DNA of 64,000 bases from Harmothoe impar (taxonomy: Eukaryota > Annelida > Polychaeta > Phyllodocida > Polynoidae). The DNA is taken from assembly GCA_947462335.1 (NCBI GenBank), contig OX381713.1:20018381-20082380 (forward strand). Reading direction: 5' to 3'. Position numbers and translations under genes: made by a program. The notes beneath the pieces are model-generated. The model had not been told where the DNA came from, searched no databases, and saw nothing but the letters and a program-made list of their open reading frames with translations. This document shows positions 2,805-23,629 of the stretch, piece after piece (position 1 is the first letter of the stretch; each line of letters opens with the position of its first letter).

Positions 2805-3513
2805 AGTATGGACAAGTGATAGCTATACACAGGGTCAGGTAGCTGCACAATGATACCCGCACATTAAACTTAATTTTCACTCGCGTCTGCATTGAAATTA
2901 CCTCAGTTTTCACTACATGAGGTGGTGTGCACTGAAAACCTTTTTGGGTCATTATAGGGTCGTCATTTCTTACCCAGGGTCATAATATTGTTCACATTTT
3001 CCGAGGACCTCGGCTATTCATTATTATGACCCTGCATGTGTTCTCAATATGACTACCGTTGTATACTATATGTCAATTGTTCTTCCACGTGTAACCCTCA
3101 GCAGTCCCAATATGGCATTTGTGTAATGCTAATGCCAGCAAATTCCTGCTAAATTACATTGAGTTACCAGAAATACAGTGGTTAATATACACAAGTGGTG
3201 ACTAATTCCTATCTGATTTCAGACCAAACTTTCATTCTAATTATATAAGGGTCTAAATGAAATATACAGGTTCAAACAATGTTGTTAACATAGCTATTGG
3301 TCAAGACAGTTCATGAATAAGTTCACCCCTTTTTAAGAAAAAAAAACTGCATCCAAAAGGGCGGTTGCAAGATTTATTAAGTGCTCGCGCGAAAATCCAC
3401 CCCTTGTTGTTAAATAATGACCATTCCATGGTATATTGATTAGTACCAGGTTGTTTACTTGTGGTCTACAACTTGTCCATGTGACCCATATTTTATTGAT
3501 CCATGGCACTTAC
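2805..3513. other. intergenic, nothing recognised
   Basis: AT-rich sequence without a convincing coding region. A short inverted pair around 2945-3035 (GGGTCATTATAGGG-like against TTATGACCCT) suggests a decayed hairpin element, but its ends cannot be set. Confidence 0.4.
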
Positions 3514-3622
3514 GGGCCGAGTGGGGGGTCGCAACTACTATTGGCTAATTGGTGGGAGTCTCGGAATAAAAATTACTGTTTTGGGAAAAAATAAAACCCA
3601 GCAGTAATAAATGACTCGGCCC
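3514..3622. mobile_element. 109-bp MITE-like hairpin element
   Basis: The ends are GGGCCGAGT and its reverse complement ACTCGGCCC. They are flanked by a direct TTAC on both sides (3510-3513 and 3623-3626), as expected for a target duplication. There is no coding capacity. The superfamily is not assigned. Confidence 0.65.
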
Positions 3623-3822
3623 TTACGGCTTAATCAACTTATGATTCCAAAATAGTCTAACTGTAAACTAAGCTGTGACTATGTCTCACAGAAATGATGC
3701 AGGTCTGGAACTCAGATGGAGAAATTATTTTCTTTGCAATAGAATCTAATCCTTTTATTTAGGTATATTAAAGGTGGTTGGGGATCATGCTATGGAATTA
3801 TTTTTTATTATATATGTACATG

Positions 3823-3836
3823 GTTGCCATGGTAAC
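3823..3836. promoter_or_regulatory. RFX X-box-like palindrome
   Basis: GTTGCCATGGTAAC is a full match to the X-box consensus bound by RFX factors (RYYNYYATRRNRAC). No adjacent promoter is seen, so it may be a fortuitous or transposon-borne site. Confidence 0.4.
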
Positions 3837-3864
3837 CATTCAAACATGAGATATGGTGATTAGT

Positions 3865-4684
3865 GGCGTCTATATGACATGCTAGGTCAAATTCCTTTGG
3901 TGCACCTAATTAAAAAACATTCCACTATGGCTTCTCTACTTATATGAAAAAATGAGGGTATATCTATATTCTTTCATGTTATATAAAAGGTCCAGGCTAA
4001 ACTCTGCAACTTTTTAAACATAAGCGGATGGGAATTGCACTTTTCATGCCTTTTTATTTTTTTGCTATTTCAAAACTTTGCAGTTACACTGTACCTATCC
4101 AGTTTGGCCTATGTTGATTATTCCTTGGTTAAGTAATAGCAGAAACCCTTCCCTAAATGTTAGTATATTACGTGATCCCCAGGAGATGCATAAGTTCTCA
4201 CCACAGTCATATTCAAATGCTTGCTTCACCTTGTCATATAGACGCCATCATGTCATATAGACGCCATCATGTCATATAAAAGCCACTCTCCCACTCCCCT
4301 ACATAGTGCTGGAAGGTGGTAGGACCATGTAATTTGACGTATGACTAGTGTTTTAGTACATAGATAGGATGGAAATTATGAAAGGTGATACAAATCAAAG
4401 ATATAGACCTTTATATGTCACCTTGTCATATAGACACCATCATGTCATATAGACGCCATCATGTCATATAGACGCCATTGTGTCATATAGACGCCTTTTC
4501 CACCCCAATAGTGTATATCCCTTGGCTATTACACTGTTAGGATTGTTATATTTCGTATGTGGGTAGTTTTTCAGTAGAGCCATATGAAATATGACTTGGA
4601 ATTAACAAGATGCCAAAAGGCTGGGAAATATAGACCTAGAAACTTACTGTGTCATATAGACGCCCTTGTGTCATATAGACGCCA
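3865..4684. repeat. dispersed 21-bp minisatellite (GTCATATAGACGCCATCAT)
   Basis: Units of about 21 bp built on GTCATATAGACGCC occur in three clusters, around 4230-4285, 4423-4495 and 4650-4684. One inverted unit lies at 3866-3882 (GGCGTCTATATGACATG). The inverted outer copy makes the tract look like a decayed inverted-repeat element with tandem subterminal units. The gypsy element lies 17 bp beyond the last unit. Confidence 0.7.
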
Positions 4685-4889
4685 AGGGGTCTCAGACCTG
4701 TGTAGGGGCACGAATAATACGTGTACATATAAGGTCCGTGGAGTCAGAGCGGTAAGTGCCTCCAACGGACACTAGGTGGCAACACCTGAGCCATGTCCTT
4801 TCGGTTATCCGGTAGCGGAGCCAGGCAGGGCACTCCAGACGGCGCTACGGAGGAGTGCCACGTCGACACTGCTTGGTCCGCGCTCAGGG

Positions 4890-4897
4890 TATATAAG
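4890..4897 (+). promoter_or_regulatory. TATA box of the 5' LTR promoter
   Basis: TATATAAG in a GC-rich setting, about 190 bp into the LTR. It would drive the genomic transcript. The same motif is at 18083-18090 in the 3' LTR. Confidence 0.8.
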
Positions 4898-5150
4898 AGG
4901 CCGAGGTTGGCTACCTCACCAGTTAGTCCTAGGACGAGCTCTGACCCGCACCTTTCGTACCTTCGCTTTGACAGGGGCACCTACACCCCTCCCACGTTAT
5001 GGACTCTGCACCAGCCATGCTGGCACAGAGCTTAACTGTCCGGTATCGCTAATGCTTCGAACTATCGATAGAATCCTGTGTGTCTTCGAATGGTTGAAAG
5101 ACCAAGTGAACCGAGTGAGAAACCTTCGTGTACTTTTGAGGCTGTGATCG

Positions 5151-5156
5151 AATAAA
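5151..5156 (+). terminator. LTR polyadenylation signal
   Basis: AATAAA, followed by TTGCATTC and a GT-rich run (TGTGTTCGTGTTG). Its copy in the 3' LTR (18344-18349) is the one that should end the transcript. Confidence 0.75.
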
Positions 5157-5222
5157 GACCTGTTGCATTCAAACCGAATTTGGAACCTGTGTTCGTGTTG
5201 TACGCATATGAAACCCCTACAT

Positions 5223-5240
5223 TGGTGCCGTGACCAGTTC
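5223..5240 (+). other. primer-binding site
   Basis: TGGTGCCGTGACCAG starts one base after the 5' LTR. TGG is the complement of the CCA tail of a tRNA, as expected for a minus-strand primer site. Which tRNA it matches cannot be decided without a tRNA set. Confidence 0.8.
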
Positions 5241-5276
5241 GGGTGAAACACAGAATAGCACAGTCAGTGGGTTAAC

Positions 5277-7382
5277 ATGGCTGAACAGGCAAAGGGTGGA
5301 GCGTCCCTTCATCCTATTTCGAGTCCAGATCCGGAGGTGGTAGCAGCCCTTGAGAAACATTATGGGCCAAACCGTTCGAGTTCTACACCAGAACCAAGGA
5401 GAGGCAATCCTGATTCTATTCGAAAATATCTGGGGTCAAACCTAGATGATTCTTTGTTTGAAACTGGTGGTTCGAAGAGACACATTGCTCCTATGCCAAC
5501 ACAAGGCATGAGCATACTGCATGCTGAACGACACCAGCGACAGGAAGTGACACGTCGTCATTTCGAAGAGGAGAAGAATCGGTTCGAAGGAGCAAGGATC
5601 GCAGAGATGGACAGGATGAATGAAGAGTTTGAAGCTTTGAGTCATCGGTTGGTACAGCTTCGGAACAAGAATGAAGATCTAGAAGGGGCAACAATAGAGA
5701 AACAGAACCGCTTAGACACAACGAAGGCAGAACTGGAACATATGGAAAACCAGTTCGCTCATCAACAGAATGTCTTGCGGCGACGTACTGAATCTCTAGA
5801 ACAACGTCAGGATAAGACCATACATGATTCGGACGAGCTCCATGATACGATCCGAGAAGCTACCAAGGCGATGATGGACGAAAAGGATCGTCTGATCAGG
5901 GAGGTGGAAGATTTACAGAAGAAACGAGATGAAGAAGCAATTCGAGGTAGCCGTTCAGGGTTCGATCATGTCAGTGGTGGCATATACAACTCATCAACTG
6001 GTGGGGGTAGTGCCTCTACCTCAACCGGAGGGAGACCAAAACAAGTGACCATTGATACAGGGGATCCGGATGGAAGATCTTCGCGGCGTGACCAACGCCC
6101 AACGTCGTATGATGACGACCATTCGAACTCTCCCAGTCGTTCCAGCTCTCGAGAGAGACCGAGCCGTACGAGTTCGAATGAGAGATCTTCGAGATCTGAT
6201 CCGAATGAACGTTCGAGTGGTCCCTCAAGGAGGCCAGGGAGATCTCCTACACATGCTGGTAGACGAGTATCTCGCCGCGAATCGATGTCCCCTGGGATGA
6301 AATTGATTTACGACACGAACCCCTGCATTGCTGAGATGGGAGTGGACTGTGTTAGCAGACAAGCTGATAATGCCGATATCGTCGACTGGAGCATCGAGCA
6401 GTCGTTTCTGTTGCACAGGGACAACCACAACGCTGCTAGACGCACTGCCAGCACTCAGAGTCCGTTCACAGGAAGACAGCCATGGCAGGACTGGTTCGCA
6501 GACTTCATGGACGATATGAGGTATAATCGATGGTCAGAAGAGGAATCGTTGGACGAACTTTTACGGGCATTGAGAAATGGCCCAGGCAAGCTAGCGGTTT
6601 CGAGATGGAGAACGATGCATGGTGCCAGATCGTTTACCCAATTGGTGGAATGCGCCAGTTACCTGATAGGTAATGTGGGTAATGAAGACCCGCTTCGATT
6701 GTTCCGGAAACGGACTCAAAAGCCAAACGAGTCGCACCGTGTGTTCGGTCTAGAATTGCAATCTCTCTTGCAAAGAGCTAGACCAAGATGGCAGTTAGAT
6801 GACCCACAGTTCCTAGATGATTTGTTCTCGCAATTCATTGAGGGATTAAGGGATTCTGATGAACGGACCGCTGCATGTGATAGTTGGAAAGCTGGAACTT
6901 CTCTCACTGATTTGTTCATGGCCATAGAAGACTATGACAGGAAACGGCATCTGCTATCTTCGAGAGTACTTTCGAGAACTTCCAGTGTGGTGCAAGACCC
7001 ACCAGCCTCTGATACAGAGGAAGGTGATTCTGGAAGGGAGGAGGAGATTGGCGCAGTTGCTCAAAAGAACAGCGGCAAATCTTATTCCAATTCGAATTCG
7101 AAGCGCTATCCGAAGGCCGACAGGAAAACACCACCTGTGACCCCAGGAGTTACAAGCGCACCTTCGACTACTTCCTCAACTCCCAGTTCTATGGAAGAAC
7201 TTCTGTTAAGGTTGACTGACTTGATGTCTGGAAACCAGCAATCAACAGGGAGGAATTCGAAGCCGAGAGTGGACAAGACCACTAGGAAGTGTTACAGGTG
7301 TCAGGTCCTGGGACACTTTGCTGCAGAATGCCCAGCTGAAAAGCCGGTACCCAAGCCTGAAGAGAAGAAAACGGAAAACTAG
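5277..7382 (+). CDS. gag: gag polyprotein of the gypsy element
   Basis: 701 residues, intact. Residues about 83-221 are strongly heptad-like and charged, predicting a long coiled coil, which is unusual at the front of a Ty3/gypsy Gag. Residues about 248-335 form an Arg/Ser-rich low-complexity stretch with possible nuclear-localisation character. Residues about 370-560 resemble the retrotransposon Gag capsid fold (Trp- and Leu-rich helices, QPWQDWFADFMDD). A single CCHC zinc knuckle, C672-x2-C675-x4-H680-x4-C685, is near the C-terminus and should bind the RNA. The start is the first ATG after the primer-binding site, with a favourable context (aacATGG). The frame closes at TAG 7380. Pol follows in the -1 frame. 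Confidence 0.95.
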   Translation: MAEQAKGGASLHPISSPDPEVVAALEKHYGPNRSSSTPEPRRGNPDSIRKYLGSNLDDSLFETGGSKRHIAPMPTQGMSILHAERHQRQEVTRRHFEEEKNRFEGARIAEMDRMNEEFEALSHRLVQLRNKNEDLEGATIEKQNRLDTTKAELEHMENQFAHQQNVLRRRTESLEQRQDKTIHDSDELHDTIREATKAMMDEKDRLIREVEDLQKKRDEEAIRGSRSGFDHVSGGIYNSSTGGGSASTSTGGRPKQVTIDTGDPDGRSSRRDQRPTSYDDDHSNSPSRSSSRERPSRTSSNERSSRSDPNERSSGPSRRPGRSPTHAGRRVSRRESMSPGMKLIYDTNPCIAEMGVDCVSRQADNADIVDWSIEQSFLLHRDNHNAARRTASTQSPFTGRQPWQDWFADFMDDMRYNRWSEEESLDELLRALRNGPGKLAVSRWRTMHGARSFTQLVECASYLIGNVGNEDPLRLFRKRTQKPNESHRVFGLELQSLLQRARPRWQLDDPQFLDDLFSQFIEGLRDSDERTAACDSWKAGTSLTDLFMAIEDYDRKRHLLSSRVLSRTSSVVQDPPASDTEEGDSGREEEIGAVAQKNSGKSYSNSNSKRYPKADRKTPPVTPGVTSAPSTTSSTPSSMEELLLRLTDLMSGNQQSTGRNSKPRVDKTTRKCYRCQVLGHFAAECPAEKPVPKPEEKKTEN
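7361..7382 (+). promoter_or_regulatory. gag-pol overlap, putative -1 frameshift window
   Basis: The pol frame is open from 7361 (just after TGA 7358-7360), while gag ends at 7382. This leaves a 22-nt overlap in the -1 frame, rich in A (GAAGAAAACGGAAAAC). Pol has no early ATG in this frame until 7523. Production by -1 ribosomal frameshifting on one of the A runs is therefore the likely route. No canonical X-XXY-YYZ heptamer is perfect here, so the exact slip site is uncertain. Confidence 0.6.
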
Positions 7383-9306
7383 ACGGGGTTGCTCTGGATG
7401 GCAAGGTAGTAACCCCTAAGGAGAAAGAAAGCCAACATATCGCCAGCGGTGCAAGCGATGAAGTCCGAGGTGCAGTAGAGATTGGAAACTTAGAGGAGGG
7501 GCCTGATCAGTCCCTTCTAAGTATGTCCAATGAACCCAGAATAGTAGACGTCCGAGGAGGAAGTACTGGGGAAGCGGCGAATTGGATGCAGGAGCTGGAA
7601 GTAGTCAGCAGTGCCCGATTGTCCCCGGATCACCCCTGTTTGAAGCACTTGAAACGACGGGGAGTAGATCTTGGTGTCACTAAGGATTTCGAACGTTTCA
7701 CCGTCAACCCATCACCATTGGATGGGAAGAGGTGGTATTTGACTGTAGCAGTGAGGGGAAGGTCTGCAGAATTTCTAGTGGATACTGGAGCTAGTCACTC
7801 CATGATCTCGAAGAGGTTCTATGACCTTGTAGTCGATGAGCCAGATAACTTCACAACGAGGGTAACAGCTCATTCGGCCGACGGTAGCTGCATGCAGACG
7901 TTTGGTAAAGCATTTTTCGAAATCAATATAGGTGGGCAGGATTACCTCCTGTCCCCTACTATTGCTGATCTGAGTGATGATGGCATCATCGGATTAGATT
8001 TCGCTGCGTTGTACGGTGCAATGTTGGAACCTTGTAGGGGGATGTTAAAGATAGAACATCCATATAGGTTGGCCGTACAATGCGTGTTGAGAAAGGTATC
8101 TTCTGTAGCCTCGGTGGTACAGACGGTTAAGATACCCCCAGGACAGACATGTGATGTCCTGTTTTCGAGTGACAGTATCTTCCGAGACCAGATGGCGGTG
8201 GTTGAACCCGATGTGGTGAGACTTGCATCAATTGGACTCGAGAGTGCAGATACTTTCGTAGGCAGTGGCAGTAGGAATCTAATTCCTATTTCGAATCCTG
8301 GTGGTGAAGTCCGTTATCTGATGAAAGGTACTCCCGTGGGGCAGGTGATCGTTGCACAGGCAAGCACCAGTATACTCTCAGAAGATACCCAACCGAACCT
8401 TGAAGGGATGTCCGATTTACGTCCGGAACTCCAAAAGTTGGTGGACGATTCGAGCTTGGTGACGGGGGACCAGAAAGATCAGTTGAGACGGGTATTGGTG
8501 AAATATGATGCAGCCTTCGGGGAGCCCACTGGTTTGGGGCGAACTGATAAGGTGCTACATTCCATCACTACAGAGGACGCTGTACCTTTCAAAATCCCTT
8601 ATAGACGCCTACCTCTGAAGAAGAAATTGATGGCCGAGAAGGAAATCGCTGATCAGCTGAGATTAGGGGTGATTGTTCCCAGCACTAGCCCCTGGTCCAG
8701 TCCTGTTCAGATGGTGACTAAGAAAGACGGCACAATTCGCTTCTGCATAGATTATCGAAAATTGAATGGTTGTACTAAGAAAAACTCCTATCCTCTCCCC
8801 CGTATAGACGAGACTATTGATTCCCTGGGCGGAAACCAATGGTTCTGTACGCTGGATTTGCAATCCGGATACTGGCAAGTTGGAATGAAGGAAGAGGATC
8901 AGGAAAAAACAGCATTTTCGAGCCATGTCGGTCTTTTCCAGTACAATGTGATGCCGTTCGGATTGTGTAACGCCCCTGCAACATTCGAAGCCATGATGGA
9001 ATCTCTGTTGAGTGACCTGTTATGGAAGGAGTGTTTGGTGTACCTGGACGATGTAATTGTCTTCGGGAAGACCTTCGAATCGTGCCTGGCTACTTTAGTC
9101 AAAATTTTCGAGAGGTTGATAACCCATGGTTTGAAATTGAAACCAAGGAAGTGTCACCTGTTTAGGACTTCTATTAACTATCTCGGTCGGATAATATCCA
9201 CTGAGGGGGTTAAGGCGGATCCTGAGAAACTAGATGTTGTATCGGAATGGGAAAAGCCAGAGGGACCTAAAGACATACGGTCCTTTCTGGGCTTCTGTAG
9301 CTACTA
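7361..9306 (+). CDS. pol: pol, 5' part: protease and reverse transcriptase
   Basis: Open from the overlap with gag. The aspartic protease has the active-site motif VDTGAS (Asp-Thr-Gly at 7781-7789) and the downstream hydrophobic motif IIGLDF. The reverse transcriptase follows with PYRRLPL, FCIDYRKLN, MPFGLCNAP and the catalytic YLDD at 9041-9052. The reading frame is broken at 9306 inside the RT connection (FCSYY motif) by a DNA transposon. The coding frame resumes exactly at 10494. Without the insertion and one TA copy the frame is continuous and spans 1423 codons. The open frame read through the insertion stops at 9379 and would give a truncated product lacking RNase H and integrase. Confidence 0.94.
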
Positions 9307-10491
9307 CCCTAGTAGCAAGCCCGCACGGGGCCAATTTGGTTTTAGCTCGGATTGGCTGTTTGAAGTCGGGAAAAACTGAGCTGGGTTTCATGTTGGGCAG
9401 ATGGCTGGGCTGAAGTGTGGCCCCGATCGGGCTGCCCATTTTGGGCTCAGATCAGTTTCAAAGCGGGCTGCCCGATTTGGGCTCAGATCAGTTTCAAAGA
9501 GGGCTACCCGCTTTGGGTTCATGTTGGCCAGATGACAGGAAACCCGTTCTGAGCCCAATTCGGGCAGCCCACTTGGGGCCATACCAAAACCCAGTGCCCT
9601 AAACCAACGGGCGCCAGTCGGTTAGCCCACTCCGGGCCGATGAGGGCTGAGGTTGGGTTTGGACAGGGCAACTGGTCTAATAGTTCTGATGATTGACACC
9701 AGATGTCACTGCTATACAATATCTAGAGTTTTCCAACAAAGCCAGATGAAATTGACATTATATAATAATACAATAAAATGTTAAAGTGATGTAGAATAGG
9801 AAACAATAAATAGATGTTCTCACAGTTTGGAAATAAGATAGACTAAATATTTGAATGATGAAAAGGAGGTTCTCTAAGCAGCTATCCAGTGTAAACACTA
9901 TTTCTGTGGCATTACAATCTTAATACAAGACTCATGTGCCCCATGTAGGTATGAACTATGGCTTTGAAGGCCAATGTGCACCATAGACACTTGTCTATGC
10001 TGCATGTGGCTCAAACCTGATGATAATAGGCCTGCTTGATACTTCCATTATTGGGTAGGAAGAGTATGATTATGCCTTGGGTTGATTAGCAGGACCTAGG
10101 ATATCTGGTTCAACAAATACAAGAAATCATTGGAAAATGATTGAATAGATTCTAAAAACCCATAATTATCCAATCTTAGCCCGCTTTCAACCCGTCCAAA
10201 AACCGATCTAAGCCCGTTTTCAACCCATCCAAAAACCGATCTGAACCCACTTTCAGCCCGTCCAAAAACCAATCTGAGCCCAAAGTGGGAAGCCCGTCCA
10301 AAAACTGATCTGAGCCCAAAGTGGGCTTCCCGTCCAAAACCCGATCTGCGCCCAACATGGGAAGCCCGCACGGGGCCAGACCAAAGCCCAGTGCCCTAAA
10401 CCGATGGGAGCCCGTCGGTTAGCCCACTCCGGGCCAGACTTGCAAACACAGTCTGGCCCCGTCCGGGGCCACAGTGTGTTTGCTACTAGGG
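9307..10491. mobile_element. non-autonomous DNA transposon nested in pol
   Basis: 1185 bp with perfect 12-bp terminal inverted repeats, CCCTAGTAGCAA and TTGCTACTAGGG, flanked by a TA duplication (9305-9306 and 10492-10493). Removing it with one TA restores the pol frame exactly. Both subterminal regions carry short tandem units of about 33 bp built on GGGCTCAGATC, in opposite orientation (about 9420-9530 and 10175-10370). A direct repeat of about 60 bp, containing CCCAGTGCCCTAAACC, occurs near 9580-9640 and again at 10376-10435. No transposase is present. TA targeting suggests mobilisation by a Tc1/mariner-type or similar enzyme, which is inferred. The TTCGA words common in the host element are absent here. 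Confidence 0.93.
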
Positions 10492-10493
10492 TA

Positions 10494-12816
10494 CAGAGAC
10501 TTCCTACCGGGGTATGCCAGAATAGCTCAGCCTATGCAGGCTCTAGCTCACTGGACTCCGGGTAGAAGGAAGGAGCCTTTTCCATGGGGTCCGGAACAAG
10601 ATCTAGCATTCGAAGCCGTGAAGAACCTATTTCGAACCACCCCAGTTTTGAAATATCCAACAGCTGATGGACATTTCATACTGGACACAGACGCCAGTAA
10701 TGACAGTATAGGTGCTGCTCTATCCCAGATGCAAGAGGGGATAGAAGTGCCACTGGCTTTCGCTAGTAATACCCTCAATAAGGCCCAGAGGAATTACTGT
10801 ACCACTAAGCGCGAATTGTTGGCGGTAGTGGTGTATACGAAGAAGTTTAAGCACTTCCTTTGGGGAGGTGACTTTACTTTACGGACAGATCACTCGTCCT
10901 TAAGGTGGCTGTTGAACTTTAAGGAAGCAGAAGGAATGATCGGTCGATGGCTGACCCACTTGTCCGAGTTCGGGTTGGAAAATAGCCAAATCCAACACAG
11001 AGCAGGGAGCAAGCATATCAATGCTGACGCCCTTTCGAGAAGACCCATACGGAAATGTTCTAGAATGGATTGCGATGATTGTGGAGCCCATAATGCTGTA
11101 ATAGCTGGAGTTCGAATGCCGTATGATGTAGGACATTCTAAAGCAATGGAATGGTCCACCGAAACCATCAGGCAATTCCAGAAGGGTGATGCTGTCATTT
11201 CGAGACTAATAGAACAGGTCTCCAGTGGTGCCCAACCACAAAGACCAACCATTTCGATTGAGAACCGGGAAATGAGACAGCTACTTGCTCAATGGTCTGA
11301 GCTAACTGTTGTTGACGGTATCTTATGTAGGTGGAAGATAACACCGTACAAGGCCAAAATTCGACAAATCGTGATACCCACAGCTATGCGAAGGGATATC
11401 ATGTATTTCGTACATGGACATCAGACCAGTGGACATTTTGGAAAGAAGCGCTCCCTTGCGCGACTCTCCAGAAGGTATTACTGGCCTGGCATGAGTAAAG
11501 ATCTGCTTAGGTGGATCTCTACTTGTCCAGATTGTTGTCTGAGCAAACCAGGTGAAGGCCTGGGGAAGTTGCCACTAACTCAAGAGCTCTGGGGAGTTAG
11601 ATTTGCACGCATAGCGGTTGATATCATTAGTGGCCTAAAAACCACTCCTGATGGAAACACGTGCATGATGGTGATCTCCGACTACTATTCAAAGTATACT
11701 AGAGTGTTTCCTCTGAAAGATCACAAGGCTCATACATGTGCTCGTGCATTTGTAAAGGGTTGGGTGCTTCATCTAGGCGTGCCCTTGATGTTGCATAGTG
11801 ATCAAGGCAGAGAATTCGAATCTGAGTTATGGGCAGCAATGTGCCATAGCCTTGCTATATGCAAAACAAGAACGAATCCGTACCGGCCTCAGTCTGATGG
11901 TCAAGTAGAAAGGTTCAACAGAACCTTGATACAAGTCCTGAAGCCTCTGGTCAACAGTCAGATGGATGATTGGGACGAGCAATGCGAGTTTGTGGTACAT
12001 GCTTATAATAGTACGGTGCATGCTTCCACCGGTTGTTCCCCCAATTTGTTGGTATTCGGAGAGGATTTGATTATGCCTGCTGACTTGGTGTTTGGCGTAG
12101 CTGGGATAAACGCTGAAACACCCTGTCAGGTGATGTTCGTGGAGGCATTGAGGGATCAATTCAAGTCCGCATACGAGATGGTTCGATGTGAACTAAGCAA
12201 ATCTGCTTCATGGCAAAAAGTGGGCTATGACGTAGGTTTGAAACTTAGGTCCTTTCGAGTGGGGGATGAAGTAGTTAGGCTACACGACCCCCTACAGCAG
12301 CTAAAGTTGTCACCCAACTGGGATGGTCCCTTTACTGTGGTTCGGATTGTTTCTGAATCCACGGTGGTGATCAAATCCTTGTTGGGACGCCTGTATAAAT
12401 CCAATGTAGCTCGCCTACGCCGGTGGCAGGGTGATGCTTCAGCGCATTCGAAGCCAGGGGAGCATTCGAAGTCAGATAACACTGAGTGGAGAGCGACCAC
12501 CCCGGAACGACGTGGTCCTGGTAGACCTAGGAAACTAGTGATACCCTCAGATGAGAAAAAACCTATGCCTCCTGGTATTGGTAAATTAAAGCGGGGCCGG
12601 GGTAGGCCTAAAAAAAATTTACCAATTCAAGCTTCTAGCAAGAAGGATAAAAAGTGCGGAAAAAAAGTCTCGGCAAATGAAGGTCTGAAGGGGAGGAGGG
12701 CTGTCCAATTGACTACTGGACATCCTGTCGAATCTTCCCGGACGACCAGGTCTAAAGAACCCAAGGTGGGGTTAAGACGCAGTCCACGGCATAATCCGGA
12801 GACTGCTGTGACCTAA
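10494..12816 (+). CDS. pol: pol, 3' part: RNase H, integrase, AT-hook tail
   Basis: Continues pol after the nested insertion. RNase H begins with LDTDASNDSIGAALSQ (Asp codons at 10684-10692). Integrase follows with an HHCC zinc domain (H-x3-H ... CPDCC, about 11410-11537). Its DDE core has Asp in VDIISGL, Asp in HSDQGREFE and Glu in DGQVERFN. A GPY/F-type module (NWDGPFTVV, about 12316-12342) comes next. The C-terminal tail is basic and carries two AT-hook-like cores, GPGRPRK (about 12513-12533) and GRGRPKK (about 12594-12614), in place of a chromodomain. These could bind the minor groove of AT-rich target DNA. That role is inferred. Confidence 0.94.
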
Positions 12817-13416
12817 TTTGTATACACAACAAGAAGTTTCGATGCCATGATGGTAGTGCAGACCTAATTGCTGTCGAGTGAGCAGAGCTAGGGTGAGAGT
12901 TGATCATGAACGTCCCCGAGGGTGGCAGACGGAACTATCCGGCGGGTATTCTTATGTTACCCGTAATGACATTTGCCTACACTCCTGAAGAATTCATGAT
13001 TAGCGGTATCCCTGGTACTGTGGAACTGACTCCATAAGGTTTACACTCCGGTGAGCTACCCGTTCGATTAGTGGCGGGAAACGCGAGCGTCTCCCGCCGG
13101 GTTATCCGTCGGAAAAGGGCTATCCGGTGAAGCGTGAACGCTGATTGGTTGACCTTCGCTCCCGCGGCGGGCGTGGCATCACGAGACAAGAAGGGCGGTC
13201 GCCATATTGGATCAGTGCCAAGAAGACGCACGGACGCTGCAGGGCAAAGGAGGAGGAAGAAGGGACTTGTAGTCGACCAAAAGTCTCCAAAACCACATCA
13301 TAAGACGCGCCAACCTGGTTAGTTCCCACTCCTAGTGTCATTAGGACACGCGGAGCTTCGTACTCCGCAAATCTTCGATCATTAAACTTCGTTTTCGCTG
13401 AAAACATTCGACTGCA
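12817..13416 (+). other. 600-bp gap between pol and ORF3
   Basis: No ORF of note. The stretch is CpG-rich for this window, especially 13060-13280. It could hold a splice acceptor or an internal promoter for ORF3. No TATA box is seen, and candidate acceptors cannot be ranked by eye. Confidence 0.5.
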
Positions 13417-16400
13417 ATGGAGGAGCAGTACACCCCCGGTGAGGGCCTCCAGTCCGACGAGATAGATCTGTTCGGGATGGACGATGGCCAATTCGACAAC
13501 GCTCGTGAGTCGGATTATGAATCCGCCTCTGAATCCACCGGGAGTGCGGTTACCGTTCGTGTAGCGGGGATCGGCTCCTATTTGACGGCTGATCGGGACA
13601 GCATGACCATGCCACCCCCGGCTACAGTCAACCTAGGGCCGTTGCCGTGGCGCAATGTCCCGAAACGTGTTGCTTCGAAAGACATAGACAATTCGACGTC
13701 AACCCGGCTGAACGCAGCAGGTGATGAGGAAGAGGACGAGATGCCAGAGTTGGAAGAGGTAAGCCAGAAATTGCCTATCCATGCAGTATCTGACGAAGAA
13801 ATGGAGGACTTCGTACGAATATCACTGGCCCAGCAACAACTCATGGAGGTGCTGGAGTGTGACCCGCCGTTCGACACCTCGCTGAAGCTCCATCCCACAC
13901 TCATGGCGATGGTGCTAGACAAGCTGGAGGAACATGGATTCGACCACCATGAGGGTACTTGGCTAGAGAGTTACGAAGGAGCCATCCGGGGAGCATATCA
14001 AAATGAGATCTTTGGAAAAATCCTACTGCGATGTGGTACGAACTTTCGGCATCTCCAACAAGCCAAAGCTAGGGAGGAAGCAGTGCCCTCAAGTGATGGG
14101 AGCACGACCAGTACGAAGGGGAAGAAAAAGAAATTCTCCAAGACCAAAGGTAGTCGTAAAACTTCTAATGGCAGTACTCCTCCCAATACTCCGCCTAAGT
14201 CCGAGGTGTCCGAACCTGCCCCAGTCCAGTCCGAATGCTCTTCAAGTACTTCCCAGTCGGCTTCAACGTCATTCGAAGAACCAACTACGACCACCGGGAC
14301 TACTGAGTCCCCATCCGAATCCCTTCCGAAAGCTCCGGGACCTTTACCAGTCCCATTCGAAGAAGATTCAGCTAGCGTGGAGTTGGCTCCGCGGGAGATC
14401 CATTCGGATACCTCAGGATCAGTTGAGCAAGAAGCCCGTTATGCTCAGGTGGTTAGAGAATCCGATGAACTCAGGGCAGCCAATGAACAGTTACGGCTAA
14501 CTCTGGAGGCTATGCAAACTGCCCCCAGAACGCCAATGACTCGAGCCCAGTCCCGTAAGAACCCCAATCCGCAACAAAAAGGACGGTCCGTATCCGACGC
14601 TTCGGATCTGGAGGAGGTCCCCTTCGAACTTCCAAAGAGCCAGAAACGGAAGGCAAAGAAGAATGAGGCACGACAGCCATGTGTACCCCATCCTTCGCCT
14701 CCCCAAACTACTGCGATTAATATGTCCCCAATCGTGAGGTTGGTGGACGTAGTATCCAGTACGGCCTCTACACCTTCGACGCCTCCTAGGGCACCCACCC
14801 GGACGCATTCGACCCCTCCAGCAACTCCGACTAAAACTCCAGTGCAGGTCAAGGTACCTGCATCTCCGTCTACGTCCTCCGAGTCAGGGCAATCGAACAC
14901 ACCACCAGTGGTTTCGTCGCCCCCTCCAGCTCCAGCTGCAGGGGCAGGTGCCTCGGCAGACGTCCCAAGTTCTCGGGTGGAGGACATGATTTGGCGCAAT
15001 GCCAGTGGGGGCTTCAAGAAATTTAGGCCCGAGTGCATGGAACACTGCAAACGATCGAGGGATATGTATTCGTGTCCCAAAGAACCGGACCATGAAGGAT
15101 TGTCTGATGACGAAGAATGGATGAGATCCAATATGGGCTCACCCAGTTCCTGGTCATGGACAGAAAACTGGTTCGGTCGGCTGCTGGATCGAAAACAGTT
15201 CCCTGAGACTTACTACAACCATGAGGGCCGTCCCAAAATACGTTGGGCGATGGCCCGGTACAAAGAAGGGGTAAGGGAGGACTGCCCATTCGATTCCTGC
15301 CGTGTCTACTTCGCACACGAGAACCGCCCCATGCCTACTCGTCTTCGATTCATGCGACATCTCGTGGAGAAGCACATGCACCACCATGCGATGTATGTCT
15401 GCGCTGATATCGGCAAATCCAACAAAAAGTGTTCGGGAATGTGGACCCCTAGAAGAGGCCGAATGATCGAGCACCTGATACAATGTCATGGCCAAGCCAT
15501 GATGTTGGCCAGAAAGAACGTTGGAGATCTCCATGCATCCCTGGTGGCAGGCCTGGACAAAGTCAAATTCGAAACCATTACGATTGAGACCTTCCAATTC
15601 GGAAAGGTCCAATTAACCCGGAATTCGAAACAGTCAGCTGTCTTCCAGCGTACTGATCGACGTGGTCGACTGGACCTGAACGACACCTTGTACCAGCAAT
15701 TGTACGACTGGAGAGCGGCCAACCCCCTTCCAGGGAAACGAAGTGAGAACAGGAGTCCAGCGACTTCCGAACCTGACTGCAAAAAGGTCAAGTCGGAGGT
15801 TCCAGCTCCAAGAGCTCCAACTGCAGCACGAGGGCGCGCGACAATGATCGAGCACCGGTCTCCACTGAAGGACTTGCGTCCTGACTATGGTCCGGACTTC
15901 TCAGCCCCCAAGGGTCGCTCCCAGCTGCAAACCCTTCGTCCTCTGACTCCTGGTAACTTGGCCAGTAAGGCCGAGTACCCTTCAATGGACTTCCCTGGTC
16001 CGGAGGTACAAACTGAGAAGGATCCGTACAAGAATCTCCCTACGGGCATCTCGGTGATGGATGCCATCCGCCAACCGGACTCACGGGACGTGGAGATGGC
16101 GGATTCGGATCACTTTGTGCTGCCTGGGAAAAAGGACTTGGTGGTGACGACCACCAACCTCACTCCTCGGGCAGAAGACAAGGTGAAACCAAGGGCTGAC
16201 AGTTCTACAAAGTCAGTGGGGCGTAAAACCCCTGCTACTAGTGCGGATTCGACATCCATAAAAGCTGAGCCTGTGGTGGACCCGGTTCCAGTGACCATTT
16301 CGAACCCAGTCACCACCACACCAACGACAACTGCTGGAGGAGGGAAGGCAGCAACTGTTGCAGCCACCCTACTCACCACCACTACTACTACTGCTACTGT

Positions 16401-16929
16401 GCCCTATAAGCCCAGAGTTCGTGAGGAACCAGCAGTGGATCCAAACCAGTGGTATGATCTGATGATCAGTGGTGAAAACATTCGGCCCCAGTTACAGATT
16501 CCGAAGGACTACTTCGAGCCTCCAAAGGCTCCGGATGCGGTGGTACATAAAGAACTATACGAACGATGGTTGCAGGAACACCTGGCTGGCATGCAACGAT
16601 ATGCAGCCGGTGTGGCGAGAGCATCAACCGACTATGCCATCACCATGCAGGGCAAGGAGGTCGAGAGGCTGAGGAAGATCTTCGAGCAGCAACGTATTGA
16701 CGAACAATCGGAGCCAGATAAGGTGATCGAACTCACCAAGCAGCTGGCACAATCGAAGAAAGAACTCTCAACAGCTCGTTGTCTGCAGAAAGCTGCAGAA
16801 GATACTCTTGACGATCAGGCCAAAACTCTGAAGGCCCTGAACGTTAAGTTCATTCGGGTATTCGGTATAGGACTCACCCAATGGAGTGGGTCACTCGAAG
16901 AACTCCAGAGCGTATTGAAGGACTTATAA
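13417..16929 (+). CDS. ORF3 of the gypsy element, zinc-finger-like protein of unknown function
   Basis: 1170 residues, uninterrupted, on the same strand between pol and the 3' LTR. The N-terminus is acidic (DEEEDEMPELEE). A folded-looking segment covers residues about 130-215. A long Ser/Thr/Pro-rich linker follows (about 220-540). The core (about 550-780) carries two C2H2-like motifs: C623-x4-C628-x19-H648-x4-H653 and C662-x9-C672-x13-H686-x4-H691. A second low-complexity stretch precedes a C-terminal helical region (about 1030-1150) that looks like a coiled coil. No signal peptide, transmembrane segment or furin-like site is seen, so it is not a standard Env. The start has a good context (gcaATGG). 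I do not recognise the family. A nucleic-acid-binding or structural role is possible but unproven. TTCGA words are as frequent here as in gag and pol, which argues for long residence in the element. Confidence 0.9.
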   Translation: MEEQYTPGEGLQSDEIDLFGMDDGQFDNARESDYESASESTGSAVTVRVAGIGSYLTADRDSMTMPPPATVNLGPLPWRNVPKRVASKDIDNSTSTRLNAAGDEEEDEMPELEEVSQKLPIHAVSDEEMEDFVRISLAQQQLMEVLECDPPFDTSLKLHPTLMAMVLDKLEEHGFDHHEGTWLESYEGAIRGAYQNEIFGKILLRCGTNFRHLQQAKAREEAVPSSDGSTTSTKGKKKKFSKTKGSRKTSNGSTPPNTPPKSEVSEPAPVQSECSSSTSQSASTSFEEPTTTTGTTESPSESLPKAPGPLPVPFEEDSASVELAPREIHSDTSGSVEQEARYAQVVRESDELRAANEQLRLTLEAMQTAPRTPMTRAQSRKNPNPQQKGRSVSDASDLEEVPFELPKSQKRKAKKNEARQPCVPHPSPPQTTAINMSPIVRLVDVVSSTASTPSTPPRAPTRTHSTPPATPTKTPVQVKVPASPSTSSESGQSNTPPVVSSPPPAPAAGAGASADVPSSRVEDMIWRNASGGFKKFRPECMEHCKRSRDMYSCPKEPDHEGLSDDEEWMRSNMGSPSSWSWTENWFGRLLDRKQFPETYYNHEGRPKIRWAMARYKEGVREDCPFDSCRVYFAHENRPMPTRLRFMRHLVEKHMHHHAMYVCADIGKSNKKCSGMWTPRRGRMIEHLIQCHGQAMMLARKNVGDLHASLVAGLDKVKFETITIETFQFGKVQLTRNSKQSAVFQRTDRRGRLDLNDTLYQQLYDWRAANPLPGKRSENRSPATSEPDCKKVKSEVPAPRAPTAARGRATMIEHRSPLKDLRPDYGPDFSAPKGRSQLQTLRPLTPGNLASKAEYPSMDFPGPEVQTEKDPYKNLPTGISVMDAIRQPDSRDVEMADSDHFVLPGKKDLVVTTTNLTPRAEDKVKPRADSSTKSVGRKTPATSADSTSIKAEPVVDPVPVTISNPVTTTPTTTAGGGKAATVAATLLTTTTTTATVPYKPRVREEPAVDPNQWYDLMISGENIRPQLQIPKDYFEPPKAPDAVVHKELYERWLQEHLAGMQRYAAGVARASTDYAITMQGKEVERLRKIFEQQRIDEQSEPDKVIELTKQLAQSKKELSTARCLQKAAEDTLDDQAKTLKALNVKFIRVFGIGLTQWSGSLEELQSVLKDL

Positions 16930-17881
16930 GCTAACTTGGGTGTTCGGCTGTTCGATTGTGTGATTGATGACTTGTGCATATGATGCTTCGATGATACTGT
17001 AATAATTGTGTTGTTATTATAAAACATCCATGATTAAGGTCATGATTCGAAGGTAAACATAAGCCGGGTGGAAAATGCATAATTGTCAAGAAATGTCTTC
17101 GTTGTCTAAAAAAAAAAAAAAAAAAGGGTGTTCATACTTTAAGTAGTATAACTGATACTACATAATATGATTCGAACCAAAACTGTACATAATGTTCGAT
17201 ACCTACCTTTATCTCCAAAAATTTTCTTTTTGGACATAACAACTGGTATTCGGATTTCGAAAGTATATCTATTGTTAAAGATATAAAGGTATATATCGGT
17301 TGCCTCACATGGAGGCTAATATTACTACATTCCTTGGTTATAAGAGTTAATGTCACAACTATGTTGGTTCCAAGTATTTTTACATAATTCCAATAGTTCA
17401 CGTAATTACCTCTCCTGGGACGGTTCGCCCACTTAAATATTTTCGAGCCATTACTTCTGTGTCATTCCGTCCTAAAAAGTCACATATTGTGCAATCTCAA
17501 CTTACCTTTAAATGATTAATGTAGTAACCATTATCATATCTCAACGAAAACCATACAAAACTGTGATCACTATAGTTAGAAGTAGTATAGAACATATATT
17601 CGTATATATTCATATCTTTATTAAAGATGGATACTCACATATCTATCCTGTCGTTATAGTGTTGGATCTATAAGATCCCTGTTTTGTACATAGAGATGTA
17701 AGTGTTGTTTGTGTAACAGGTAAAATCTAAAATCTATATTTGTACTTTCTACATGTAAGTGTAAAAACGTATATCGTACCTTCAAATGTACCCCGGTATT
17801 GTCATCATGTACACTGATATTATTCTCCCATATTCGAGTATATTATATTATATCAGATGTATTTCGACCCTAGTTATAATC
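16930..17881 (+). other. 3' noncoding region of the gypsy element
   Basis: AT-rich, without an ORF. An A run of about 18 lies at 17108-17125, and TTCGA words continue. The A run could be a trace of a template switch or simply slippage. Confidence 0.6.
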
Positions 17882-17893
17882 TGGTGGGGGTGA
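17882..17893 (+). other. polypurine tract
   Basis: TGGTGGGGGTGA lies immediately before the 3' LTR, the normal position of the plus-strand primer. Confidence 0.75.
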
Positions 17894-18414
17894 TGTAGGG
17901 GCACGAATAATACGTGTACATATAAGGTCCGTGGAGTCAGAGCGGTAAGTGCCTCCAACGGACACTAGGTGGCAACACCTGAGCCATGTCCTTTCGGTTA
18001 TCCGGTAGCGGAGCCAGGCAGGGCACTCCAGACGGCGCTACGGAGGAGTGCCACGTCGACACTGCTTGGTCCGCGCTCAGGGTATATAAGAGGCCGAGGT
18101 TGGCTACCTCACCAGTTAGTCCTAGGACGAGCTCTGACCCGCACCTTTCGTACCTTCGCTTTGACAGGGGCACCTACACCCCTCCCACGTTATGGACTCT
18201 GCACCAGCCATGCTGGCACAGAGCTTAACTGTCCGGTATCGCTAATGCTTCGAACTATCGATAGAATCCTGTGTGTCTTCGAATGGTTGAAAGACCAAGT
18301 GAACCGAGTGAGAAACCTTCGTGTACTTTTGAGGCTGTGATCGAATAAAGACCTGTTGCATTCAAACCGAATTTGGAACCTGTGTTCGTGTTGTACGCAT
18401 ATGAAACCCCTACA
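17894..18414 (+). repeat. 3' LTR (521 bp)
   Basis: Same length and, as far as I can read, the same sequence as 4701-5221, offset by 13,193 bp. TATA box at 18083-18090, AATAAA at 18344-18349. It is followed by the CCTG target duplication. Confidence 0.96.
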
Positions 18415-19975
18415 CCTGCATCATTTTGGTGAGACACAGTCCTGTACAAAATACCCTTTGTCGGTCACCCCTAACAACAATCTGCTCCATCATATACCAG
18501 TACTCCCCTCCTTGTTTGATGGTTTGTGCTCAATGCAATGTTCCATAACTAAATACCTCTCCAGTCTAGTATTGTGTCCTTTGATAAAGCCTGCTATTGT
18601 GATAGTCACCACCTCAAGTATAGCTATGTGGCTTGGTGAATGCTTTCCTACTGCTAATCCATGTGAAAGAGGTATGATTATGCTTAGCTCCAGAATGTAA
18701 CCATTAGGATTGAGACCAGTATTGCCATCATTACTGATGTGCATGTTCTGAATAAAACCTATTTCTGTTGGATAGAGTTAGTATGTATGCATGCACATGA
18801 CTTGTTTCAAAAAAATTGTAAGGGGGTCTAACATTTAGATTTACTACATTTCCCATTAAACTAATTCACAACAAATAAAAGCTAAAGGAGTTCTCATGAC
18901 TCTGATAGGGAAACTTTGGTGATTCTGATAGTCAGCATCCATTTCCGATCACCTGTAACAACTCTCTGATTAACCTCTCTTTAAATATTTTGTACAAAGG
19001 TTTATCAACATTAAAAAGTAAAAGGTATTGAAAGTTAAACACATTCATTTCAGCCTGGAGATGTTTGAAAGACGATATAGCTTTGATATAGCTATAAAAG
19101 ACTAGGTTCACCTATCCTTGTTCTGTGCTGAATTAGAGATGAAATTCCCTATTGCCCCCCAATTGAATACAGATTCAGGCCTCCTTAAAATATTAGGGCC
19201 TACAGATAGTTCTTTAAATACTAAAGAAATCGTTAGGCAAAAGAAATTGGGGTCTCAATGCTATCTTTTGTGCTAGGATGGCTAAATGCAAGGGGTTATA
19301 TATTTTCCTTTTTTTCATATTTCCTGAAGAAATCAGTTAAACCATATATTATCCACCAGACTGTTTTGTAAAAATCATGGATACCTGACGTATCTATAGT
19401 AAGGAACAAAAATAAAGATGTTAAAAAACCTTATTGAAAAGGTCTTTTTGGTTTTATTTTGGACTTCATGCTTGAAGTAACAGATGGCATTTTTGTCTTT
19501 GATAAACACTTATTGTATGTTATATCTAAGTTCGAAAAACAGATTCAGGCCTCTTGTGATTTTGATATGGTGAGGATTATGGCCATGGCTTGGTATTTAG
19601 CAAATACAATGGGGGTTACCCATATTTGTTTCTTCTGAAATTGTACATAAACATGACAGACAGCGGCCAGTCACAGCTCTGTATACACACCACCTGGTAG
19701 GAGCATAATGCAGAACTACAGCTGGTCTGGAGTGTAAAAGGTCCCTAGATCAAGTCTTGCCAGGGCATCATTTTGTGAGAAAACCATTTATCCCTTAGTC
19801 TAGCTTGCATCTTGTCCAAAAGCTTGCAGACAATTCTGCTTTACTCATGCCTTTATAATGTGTATTGTTAAGAGAATATGCTATAACTTCATTAGAAATT
19901 ATTACTTCCTTATGTACATTAGTGACAACATTGACACTGAGTTGTTCAGGAGGAAGCCACTAGATGGAAAATACG
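18415..19975. other. intergenic; one weak minus-strand ORF
   Basis: An 84-codon open frame on the minus strand (18744-18490) has balanced amino-acid composition (LELSIIIPLSHGLAVGKH) and might be a fragment of an old coding sequence cut by the gypsy insertion. I cannot name a family. The rest is AT-rich, with nothing recognised. Confidence 0.35.
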
Positions 19976-21884: not shown

Positions 21885-21986
21885 AATGCTTTGGAGCATT
21901 GAAATCACATCCCTAGAAAATTGATACAAAACTTCAATGATGCCATGATTACCTATTAATTCTATGTCTCTTTTCTCATTGTCTAC

Positions 21987-21988
21987 AG
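21987..21988 (+). promoter_or_regulatory. probable 3' splice site before the LRR coding exon
   Basis: A pyrimidine-rich run (TCTCTTTTCTCATTGTCTACAG) ends directly at the first ATG of the LRR gene. An intron in the 5' UTR is the likely arrangement. The upstream exon was not identified. Confidence 0.65.
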
Positions 21989-23629
21989 ATGGGAGGGCAC
22001 ACCACCATGTCCATAGTGAGCCTGCTCCTTGTTGGGGCTACCCTGCACATTACTGAGGGCCTTTTTGTGTGCCCCTTACCCTGCGGCTGTACGGATGACC
22101 TCGAAGAGGCAAAGAAAACGGGTCGACCAACTCTGGTGGTTGACTGTCGAAAACAAAGTTTAACCACCTTACCTCCCTTTGATGGCCTCCATGGAATAAC
22201 AATATTCAGGTTATTTCTTGATAGGAATGATATCACATCCCTACCAGATCGTGCATTTGACAGCCTGACTGTCCATGGGATAACACTGTCTGATAACCCG
22301 CTTGTTAATATTTCTGCTGAGGCTTTCGTTGGGGCAGAAGGTATACAGTACTTGTCGCTAAGAAGAACCAAACTCCTCACTAAACCGCGAGTGTTCACTG
22401 AAGGCGCCTTGCAGGCACTGCAGGTGCTTGATGTTGGTCAGATCAAGACGGAAACATTCTCAGGTGAACTTGAAGCGGACACCTTTGGAAAGATATCAAA
22501 GCTGGAGCAGCTTTTTCTGGAGCAAAACAAGATTGTTTCCATCAATGATGAAGCTTTTCAGAGACTGTCTTCCTTGTTTGAGCTGCATCTAGAAGCGAAC
22601 CAGCTGACAGCGGTAGATGAAGCTATTCGAAAAGTGGCGTCCTTGGTGAGTCTTCATCTGGATGGGAATCCAATAGCAAGCATTCCTCTTAATGCTTTTG
22701 ACGCGTTAGGCTTACTGGACACTTTGACGCTGTCAGACACTCAGCTGCAGAGCCACACTGACATAAATCCTAACGCCTTATCTTCAATTCCTCTCCGCAC
22801 TTTGGACTTATCCACCAATAACTTAGGCACTGCCCCATGTGAGCTCCTCAAAGGTCTTGAAGGCCTTGAAAAACTAAAGCTTAGAGATGCTATGCTTAAT
22901 GATATTTCAACAGACTGCTTTGCTGGGCTGAGGAGCATAAAGTATCTTGACATAAGTGGGAATAACTTCAAAGTAAATGATGAACTGCTCTCTGGCATTG
23001 GGGGCACCATTGAGGTTCTGAAACTGGAGAGGCTGGATCTGACCTTGGATAACCTTCCGCTAGAATCACTCCGCAAGATGACTTCACTAAAGGACTTGAG
23101 CCTCTCAGGAAATACATTCCCCAAGCTGCCGAACCATGCCTTCCATGGCTTAACCATGAGGAAACTCTCCCTAAGCTATTGTGAGGTGGAGTCTATTGCA
23201 CCAACAGCCTTTGAGGGTCTAAAGGCACCCTTTACCTTGGATCTGAACAATAACAATGTCAGGAACCTTACTTTCATTGATAACAAATGTCAGTTTGAGA
23301 GAATTGAGCTCTACCGGAACCCTGTGAGCTGTGACTGTGCCTTCTACCATGTTGTACGGTATGGAATAACCACCTTTGTTGGACAGTGTGCCCACCCAGC
23401 TATTTACTCAGGGATCAAGTTAAATGACTTCAAGTCCAACCAGAATGTGACAAGTGAGTGTGGCACAATGAGTGGAGTCAAGGACACCATTTTGTGCTTT
23501 TGGCAATACCGGCAGGCATCGCCCGAAAACGAAGTGGGGAGTGCATCGGTTGTAAGCGCCTCTGTTCTAGCAGTGTTACTCTCACTTGTCCTGAGCTCTG
23601 GAATAATACAATGGAAAAACTTCAACTAA
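21989..23629 (+). CDS. leucine-rich-repeat cell-surface or secreted protein
   Basis: 546 residues in a single exon. Residues 1-24 look like a signal peptide (hydrophobic core IVSLLLVGATL, cut near ITEG). An LRR N-terminal cap follows with C28-x3-C32-x-C34 and C53. About fifteen LRRs span residues 60-440 with the LxxLxLxxN pattern (LEQLFLEQNKI, LRTLDLSTNNL, IKYLDISGNNF). A C-terminal cap has C448-x-C450, C467 and C491 in the NPVSCDC context. Residues about 517-540 are hydrophobic with only a short tail, so the protein is membrane-anchored, either by a single TM or by a GPI signal. Several N-glycosylation sequons are present. It probably acts in extracellular recognition or adhesion. The family is too broad to name the orthologue. 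No frame damage. Confidence 0.92.
   Translation: MGGHTTMSIVSLLLVGATLHITEGLFVCPLPCGCTDDLEEAKKTGRPTLVVDCRKQSLTTLPPFDGLHGITIFRLFLDRNDITSLPDRAFDSLTVHGITLSDNPLVNISAEAFVGAEGIQYLSLRRTKLLTKPRVFTEGALQALQVLDVGQIKTETFSGELEADTFGKISKLEQLFLEQNKIVSINDEAFQRLSSLFELHLEANQLTAVDEAIRKVASLVSLHLDGNPIASIPLNAFDALGLLDTLTLSDTQLQSHTDINPNALSSIPLRTLDLSTNNLGTAPCELLKGLEGLEKLKLRDAMLNDISTDCFAGLRSIKYLDISGNNFKVNDELLSGIGGTIEVLKLERLDLTLDNLPLESLRKMTSLKDLSLSGNTFPKLPNHAFHGLTMRKLSLSYCEVESIAPTAFEGLKAPFTLDLNNNNVRNLTFIDNKCQFERIELYRNPVSCDCAFYHVVRYGITTFVGQCAHPAIYSGIKLNDFKSNQNVTSECGTMSGVKDTILCFWQYRQASPENEVGSASVVSASVLAVLLSLVLSSGIIQWKNFN

Follow-up and report, generated by a model that had tools for sequence, protein, structure and literature searches.

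Background

Extra open reading frames (ORFs) in long terminal repeat (LTR) retrotransposons are often taken for envelopes or late captures. Among the closest described systems are the LTR retrotransposons of bdelloid rotifers, which carry third ORFs (ORF3s) that are not env genes and that are assigned, in the available part of the report, to GDSL esterase, DEDDy exonuclease, CC (coiled-coil) and TM types (Rodriguez, Kenefick, Arkhipova 2017, PMC5408684). Here, an ORF3 of 1170 amino acids (aa) was analysed in a complete Ty3/gypsy element of the annelid Harmothoe impar (GenBank assembly GCA_947462335.1, contig OX381713.1). The stretch of DNA analysed, referred to as the window, comprises the 64,000 nucleotides (nt) from 20,018,381 to 20,082,380 of the forward strand of this contig, and the positions given below are those of the window.

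The window ORF3 resembles the bdelloid ORF3s, as these appear in the accessible portion of that paper, in being an additional ORF that follows pol and does not encode an envelope, in occurring in invertebrate LTR elements and in being specific to a family; the presence of the CC type in the bdelloid list was counted as a further likeness (PMC5408684). Unlike the bdelloid ORF3s, which are missing from the earliest branches, that of the window seems to be ancestral to its clade. It also has C2H2-like fingers, and no word starting with "zinc" or "C2H2" occurs in the available text of PMC5408684. In plants, additional ORFs (aORFs) have been described in Tat/Athila, Retand, RIRE3 and sunflower Tekay elements in the available excerpt of PMC11728184. 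Like the window ORF3, these are extra, function-unassigned ORFs in gypsy elements, and the sunflower ones have been suggested to modulate RNA silencing; unlike it, and compared by description only, they are without structural similarity to known proteins (PMC11728184, in part). The only "zinc finger" named in that excerpt is the one of the integrase (HHCC).

Extra sequence has been fixed in gypsy lineages in other forms as well. The N6-methyladenosine (m6A) demethylase domain of an orchid Ty3/gypsy lineage is such a case in the portion of PMC9289625 at hand, but it is a plant enzyme domain, whereas the window has a separate ORF for a finger protein. Burro and Ogre, as presented in part of PMC6431247, are gypsy-like elements that are also enlarged by extra sequence, and at 16-30 kb or more they exceed the 13.7 kb of the window element with its one extra ORF. 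In the accessible parts of two mollusc and annelid LTR surveys (PMC6238403, PMC8556966) zinc, ORF and envelope are unmentioned, as is "zinc finger" in that of a third LTR-element survey (PMC8220671). A zinc-finger ORF3 after integrase was not found described in the literature searched (titles and the starts of abstracts, outside subscription journals and Repbase), and it may be in print. Non-env ORF3s are thus already known in LTR elements, and the finger type of the window matches none described in the portions of text compared. The presence of a zinc-finger-like ORF3 in elements that share only about half of their RNase H-integrase residues suggests that it has been part of the life cycle for a long time, and it raises the question of whether a gypsy element encodes its own regulator.

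An intact third ORF with paired finger-like motifs

The ORF3 runs uninterrupted from ATG to stop at 13417-16929 (+), between the integrase and the 3' LTR; 200 shuffles of this stretch gave no open frame above 256 aa. The original prediction, made from the letters of the window alone, had described this frame as intact, had named eight residues (C623, C628, H648, H653, C662, C672, H686 and H691) as ligands of two C2H2-like fingers, and had noted long Ser/Pro linkers and the lack of a membrane anchor. These claims held. All eight residues were found, and by hydropathy there is no membrane anchor (highest Kyte-Doolittle mean over 19-residue windows, 0.96). The combined share of Pro, Ser and Thr is 50% in residues 231-335, 44% in 373-520 and 34% in 771-1005, versus 14% in the finger region (521-770). 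A C-terminal coiled coil, also claimed, was left unconfirmed without being refuted, the best crude heptad score (5.5) falling short of the 5.8 that marks the 95th percentile among 200 shuffles.

Finger 1 (C623-x4-C628-x19-H648-x4-H653) is encoded at 15283-15375 (+) and finger 2 (C662-x9-C672-x13-H686-x4-H691) at 15400-15489 (+). Both lie in a conserved core (residues 515-790; 14959-15786, +), which also holds an extra Cys/His cluster (C540, H543, C544 and C553) and an SDDEEW motif (563-568). No Pfam family scored above its cut-off on ORF3, where one of the weak rows was Myc-LZ (13.4 bits, residues 347-369), and no PDB chain was matched by sequence at E 1. A PDB search with a two-row profile (A4) gave only two rows (E 1.1 and 1.5), neither of which was used. 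GC content at third codon positions (GC3) is 0.555 in ORF3 versus 0.46-0.50 in gag and pol, and the codon use of ORF3 correlates at r 0.68-0.80, versus 0.81-0.86 among gag and pol.

Structure prediction of the finger region had been proposed as a check. Both His of each finger share one predicted helix in two AlphaFold models, as they do in C2H2 fingers; both models are too weak for the fold to be named. The finger 2 block reached a predicted local distance difference test (pLDDT) value of 69-73 in the second model.

Counterparts of ORF3 in a database protein and a distant element

Searching with the ORF3 protein (310 candidates from 5.8 billion proteins) yielded one match, designated P0005, an 816-aa protein from a 16,556-base contig (source 'ena') that is 47% identical to ORF3 residues 515-790 (E 6e-77). 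By segment, identity is 44% (521-600), 56% (601-700) and 41% (701-770), and 26-33% outside the core. All finger ligands are invariant in P0005, as is the extra Cys/His cluster, and hydropathy gave no membrane segment in it. The higher identity of the core (41-56% versus 26-33%) and the invariant finger ligands are as under purifying selection. A profile search with ORF3, with scoring limited to the 7990 candidates that had the most words in common, gave one protein with E up to 10 and none beyond P0005.

A second counterpart was found in L001 (JAADFT010000005.1, 13,374 bp), the one relative obtained when prokaryote genome contigs were scanned with a seven-row RNase H-integrase alignment. This contig is labelled as part of a Calditrichota (bacterial) metagenome-assembled genome. 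It was read as eukaryotic because of its LTR-type features and gypsy pol, and most likely represents eukaryotic DNA binned wrongly, a contamination of the assembled genome. The first and last 91 bases of L001 are identical, so that the contig probably closes into a circle; an element whose LTRs have merged would be expected to assemble in this way. Its layout comprises gag pieces at both ends, pol at 1449-6248 and, after a spacer of 645 nt, an open frame at 6894-10070 of 1058 aa (1051 aa from the first Met), here called the L001 ORF3. At 11671 of L001, CTACA is followed by TGGTGCCGTGA, like the LTR end and the start of the primer-binding site of the window element, and over 223 columns the gag of the window shares 28.7% identity with a piece of L001 gag (E 4e-19). 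In both elements, a separate non-env ORF thus follows the integrase and is shared between related elements.

The finger regions of the window and L001 are about 25% identical. Alignment of the two-row core with the L001 ORF3 by hhalign gave a probability of 78% (E 1.8e-5, 123 columns), and hmmsearch scored the L001 ORF3 at 11.9 bits versus 5.3 bits for the best of 2000 shuffles. In a pairwise comparison, for which the stretches were picked after viewing the alignment, residues 550-780 scored 71 with L001, a score reached by 0 of 1000 shuffles (maximum 58). The SDDE motif, both fingers and their order agree between the window ORF3 and L001. In finger 1 of L001, C-x2-C stands in place of the C-x4-C of the window and H-x4-H is the same; in finger 2, C-x12-C stands in place of C-x9-C and H-x3-H in place of H-x4-H. 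The C, C, H, H ligands are present in all three ORF3s (window, P0005 and L001) with shifted spacing. A joint finger-spacing pattern, written after viewing all three and allowing spacing shifts, was found in 3 of the 129 proteins compared and in none of 4000 shuffles. The extra Cys/His cluster is not kept in L001, and neither P0005 nor the L001 ORF3 gave a Pfam match at E 0.1.

Outside the core, neither the N-terminus (score reached by 51 of 300 shuffles) nor the C-terminus taken in full (96 of 1000) resembled L001 significantly. A short tail, FG.....W.GSL, which in the window reads FG.....W.GSLEEL (about residues 1145-1166; 16849-16914, +), may be alike in both proteins; its score was reached by 6 of 1000 shuffles, the stretch having been picked after looking.

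Further searches returned nothing, whether of viral contigs with ORF3 queries (A1, A3, P0129 and A8) or pol queries (P0004 and A5), of genome contigs with an ORF3 query (A1), of plasmids with P0129 or of phages with P0001.

Age of ORF3

Searching with the RNase H-integrase protein gave 2087 relatives among 7988 scored candidates, and the best 120 of these were listed. Within this set, the 33 closest relatives (P0009-P0041) are 57-76% identical to the window protein, and 31 of them come from source 'ena' alone. A pol tree was built from the window RNase H-integrase and P0009-P0079 (10 of 71 rows dropped for short coverage, 62 rows kept). In this tree, the window falls in a 22-row clade (support 100/100), and L001 is sister to a 30-row clade containing the window (support 98/92), a placement less sure than these values imply since L001 was flagged as a long branch. 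The other side of the tree holds 28 'far' rows, which include a few bearing the names of bivalve proteins.

Because ORF3 is present on both sides of the L001 fork, an ancestral ORF3 is the simplest account; the gene probably predates the 30-row clade, whose ancestor would have had it. The original prediction had allowed that other copies of the family might lack the ORF, which would make it a one-off capture. P0005, as a protein, and L001, as an element with the ORF in place, speak against such a capture. On this comparison of sequences, ORF3 is probably an old lineage-specific part of the element rather than a chance capture.

Proposed function

The ORF3 is read here, with a probability of roughly 0.4, as an old, lineage-specific Ty3/gypsy accessory gene for a nuclear, nucleic-acid-binding transcription or anti-silencing factor acting in trans. 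That it is a non-env accessory protein, as originally proposed, is supported by three results: hydropathy shows no membrane segment, neither Pfam (above cut-off) nor the PDB gave a match, and the distant L001 has a similar ORF in the same position; a role as nuclear nucleic-acid-binding regulator of the element seems the most likely of its functions. ORF3 would be made from its own message, either spliced or started at a promoter in the spacer of about 600 nt upstream of it, and its product would enter the nucleus via basic clusters. The tandem fingers would bind the element's own DNA or RNA, the Ser/Pro-rich arms would contact partners, and the protein would work in trans; control of transcription or relief of silencing is its most likely task.

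Clusters of at least five Lys/Arg in eight residues are present in all three ORF3s (counted without a chance control). Together with the conserved finger ligands and the disordered-looking arms, they fit a nuclear nucleic-acid-binding protein, and conserved fingers and basic clusters make nucleic-acid binding by ORF3 plausible. The word CCAATCAGCG occurs once in the window, on the minus strand from 13148 within the 600-nt spacer, and also once in L001, in its spacer before ORF3. A promoter in the spacer, marked by this CCAAT / CCAATCAGCG word, is a weak lead.

Elements of other kinds offer possible parallels. VANC, encoded by the VANDAL DNA transposons of plants, is an anti-silencing protein for which action in trans on the chromatin of the element has been proposed, and the foamy virus transactivator Tas is expressed from an internal promoter. 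Likened by description only, ORF3 would share with VANC its being encoded by the element and its proposed action in trans, and would differ in element class and in host, VANC being from plants. Tas, again by description only, would illustrate how an accessory gene at the 3' side can have a promoter of its own and a DNA-binding product. A bolder and rather doubtful extension is that the whole deep clade, known almost only from 'ena' contigs (probably environmental DNA), has kept from its ancestor a gene with an internal promoter for a double-C2H2 nuclear protein, a transcription or anti-silencing factor of the element itself and thus a counterpart of Tas or VANC.

Several results weigh against the regulator reading or the age given to the gene. 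The best score with a C2H2 profile was 13.3 bits (zf-C2H2_2nd_ZNF462, residues 677-693), below the cut-off of 25 for a classical C2H2 finger, and the finger spacings are odd in comparison with classical C2H2. Mean pLDDT was 35 and 48 in the two AlphaFold models, and with these Foldseek returned nothing with E up to 0.001 (best E 1.4); its rows naming HIV integrase C-terminal domains, at E of about 2.5-5, were not used. The basic clusters precede the fingers in two of the ORF3s (window and P0005) but mostly follow them in that of L001, some 10-mer common to both spacers turned up in 418 of 1000 shuffles, and the hmmsearch E for the L001 ORF3 is a modest 0.013. Finally, one ORF3 relative in the protein database stands beside 43 listed pol relatives (P0009-P0051, from the best 120 of 2087) of at least 47% identity, and 14 of the 42 pol clusters other than that of L001 (P0042) are on contigs longer than 10 kb; this scarcity may reflect losses of ORF3. 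The absence of ORF3 in protein searches is nevertheless weak evidence, because the L001 ORF3 was also unreturned though the L001 pol (P0042) is in the database.

Alternative explanations

Next in rank after the regulator stands a particle-assembly or RNA-packaging protein, cytoplasmic alongside the nucleocapsid, with fingers that bind genomic RNA and with arms and tail that bind Gag. The one zinc knuckle detected in Gag would suit such a role, as would the resemblance of the ORF3 tail to that of L001 and a coiled-coil-like stretch of Gag, whose score of 6.4 exceeds a threshold derived from shuffles of ORF3 and not of gag. Gag and ORF3 share no sequence similarity by blastp (none at E 1), however, and the basic clusters in all three ORF3s point rather to the nucleus; we regard this role as unlikely, if a serious contender. 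A cofactor of integration is a less probable alternative still. Its fingers would bind chromatin and guide the pre-integration complex, complementing the integrase tail, which carries at 12514-12615 two motifs that we take to be AT-hook-like, GPGRPRK (GRPRK at 12520) and GRGRPKK (GRPKK at 12601). Such tails are present in all seven aligned integrases, window included (GRP with K, R or A as the next residue in seven, GRP[RK] in six), and the window integrase is without a chromodomain. A DNA-binding-type tail is, on the other hand, already on the integrase, and contact between both proteins is an assumption.

Two further explanations concern the origin of the gene. In one, a host gene would have been captured recently and only once, and ORF3 would be intact only because the copy is young, its LTRs being identical. 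The somewhat different GC3 and codon use of ORF3 relative to gag and pol would agree with this, and an A-run at 17108-17125 could be the relic of a poly(A) tail. Against it, no cellular relative came from Pfam, PDB or protein database searches, and the gene also occurs in P0005 and in L001, the latter a distant element with the gene in the same position; a one-off capture was largely rejected on these two counterparts and is left very improbable. A diverged envelope-like protein has the least credit of all, even though env-like ORFs are usually assumed downstream of pol in the part of PMC5408684 available. ORF3 and P0005 have no membrane segment, and ORF3 is Ser/Pro-rich with basic clusters and C2H2-like ligands. 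Classification as an env-bearing gypsy element was rejected, given the hydropathy maximum of 0.96 and given that neither Pfam (above cut-off) nor the PDB yielded a match.

Architecture and class of the element

The complete element occupies 4701-18414 (+) and measures 13,714 bp from LTR to LTR. Its 5' LTR (4701-5221, +; 521 bp, TGTAG...CTACA) is 100% identical to the 3' LTR (17894-18414, +; 521 bp) and contains a TATA motif near 4890. CCTG at 4697-4700 and at 18415-18418 forms a 4-bp target-site duplication. Directly 3' of the 5' LTR is a primer-binding-site-like stretch, TTGGTGCCGTGACC... (5222-5241, +), which was named by position, no tRNA having been matched. The gag ORF (5277-7382, +; 701 aa) includes a CCHC zinc knuckle (Pfam zf-CCHC, E 8.5e-6). 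It is followed, in frame -1 to gag, by the protease and the first part of the reverse transcriptase (7361-9306, +; Pfam asp protease E 3.7e-7, RVT_1 E 1.2e-33), and RNase H and integrase are encoded at 10492-12816 (+; Pfam RT_RNaseH, Integrase_H2C2 and rve). A 600-nt spacer (12817-13416, +) separates the integrase from ORF3.

Between ORF3 and the 3' LTR lies an AT-rich non-coding region (16930-17893, +; 964 bp, GC content 0.326) with a purine-rich tract at its end. In this region, about 765 bp upstream of the 3' LTR, 18 A are followed by GGG (17108-17128), which may be another polypurine tract or what is left of a poly(A) tail.

Assignment to Ty3/gypsy (Metaviridae) follows from the TG...CA ends of the LTRs, the 4-bp duplication, the order of pol domains in Pfam (protease, reverse transcriptase, RNase H, integrase) and the closest solved reverse transcriptase being that of Ty3. 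The best solved matches were the Ty3 chains 4ol8 and 7q5b for reverse transcriptase, and 7q5b for RNase H-integrase. A chromovirus was rejected, as no chromodomain was found in the window integrase among Pfam matches up to E 1, the AT-hook-like motifs being present instead. Troyka, which has CG...CG termini and 3-bp duplications according to the available part of PMC12440569, was rejected on the TG...CA ends and 4-bp duplication of the window element.

The pol of the window copy is interrupted by a 1,185-bp insert (9307-10491, +) with inverted ends CCCTAGTAGCAA, flanking TA on both sides and inner repeats of 33-36 bp, which looks like a non-autonomous DNA transposon. The element reaches 13.7 kb because this insert sits in pol; the size of about 12.5 kb originally given applies to the element with the insert taken out and not to the distance from LTR to LTR.

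Surroundings in the window

Rfam and tRNA scans of the window gave nothing. Searched by tblastn, the rest of the window gave nothing for ORF3, P0005, the L001 ORF3, gag or the two pol pieces, and by blastn it gave nothing for the LTR or the pol insert. Directly upstream of the 5' LTR, a 19-bp repeat unit (TGTCATATAGACGCCATCA) forms several short arrays at 4232-4684. Downstream of the element, a single 562-aa open frame at 21941-23629 (+) has leucine-rich repeats and a weak LRRNT match, and may encode an animal-like secreted or membrane protein. A reverse transcriptase piece at 1437-2822 (-; RVT_1, E 1e-40) is, by reading, of the non-LTR type.

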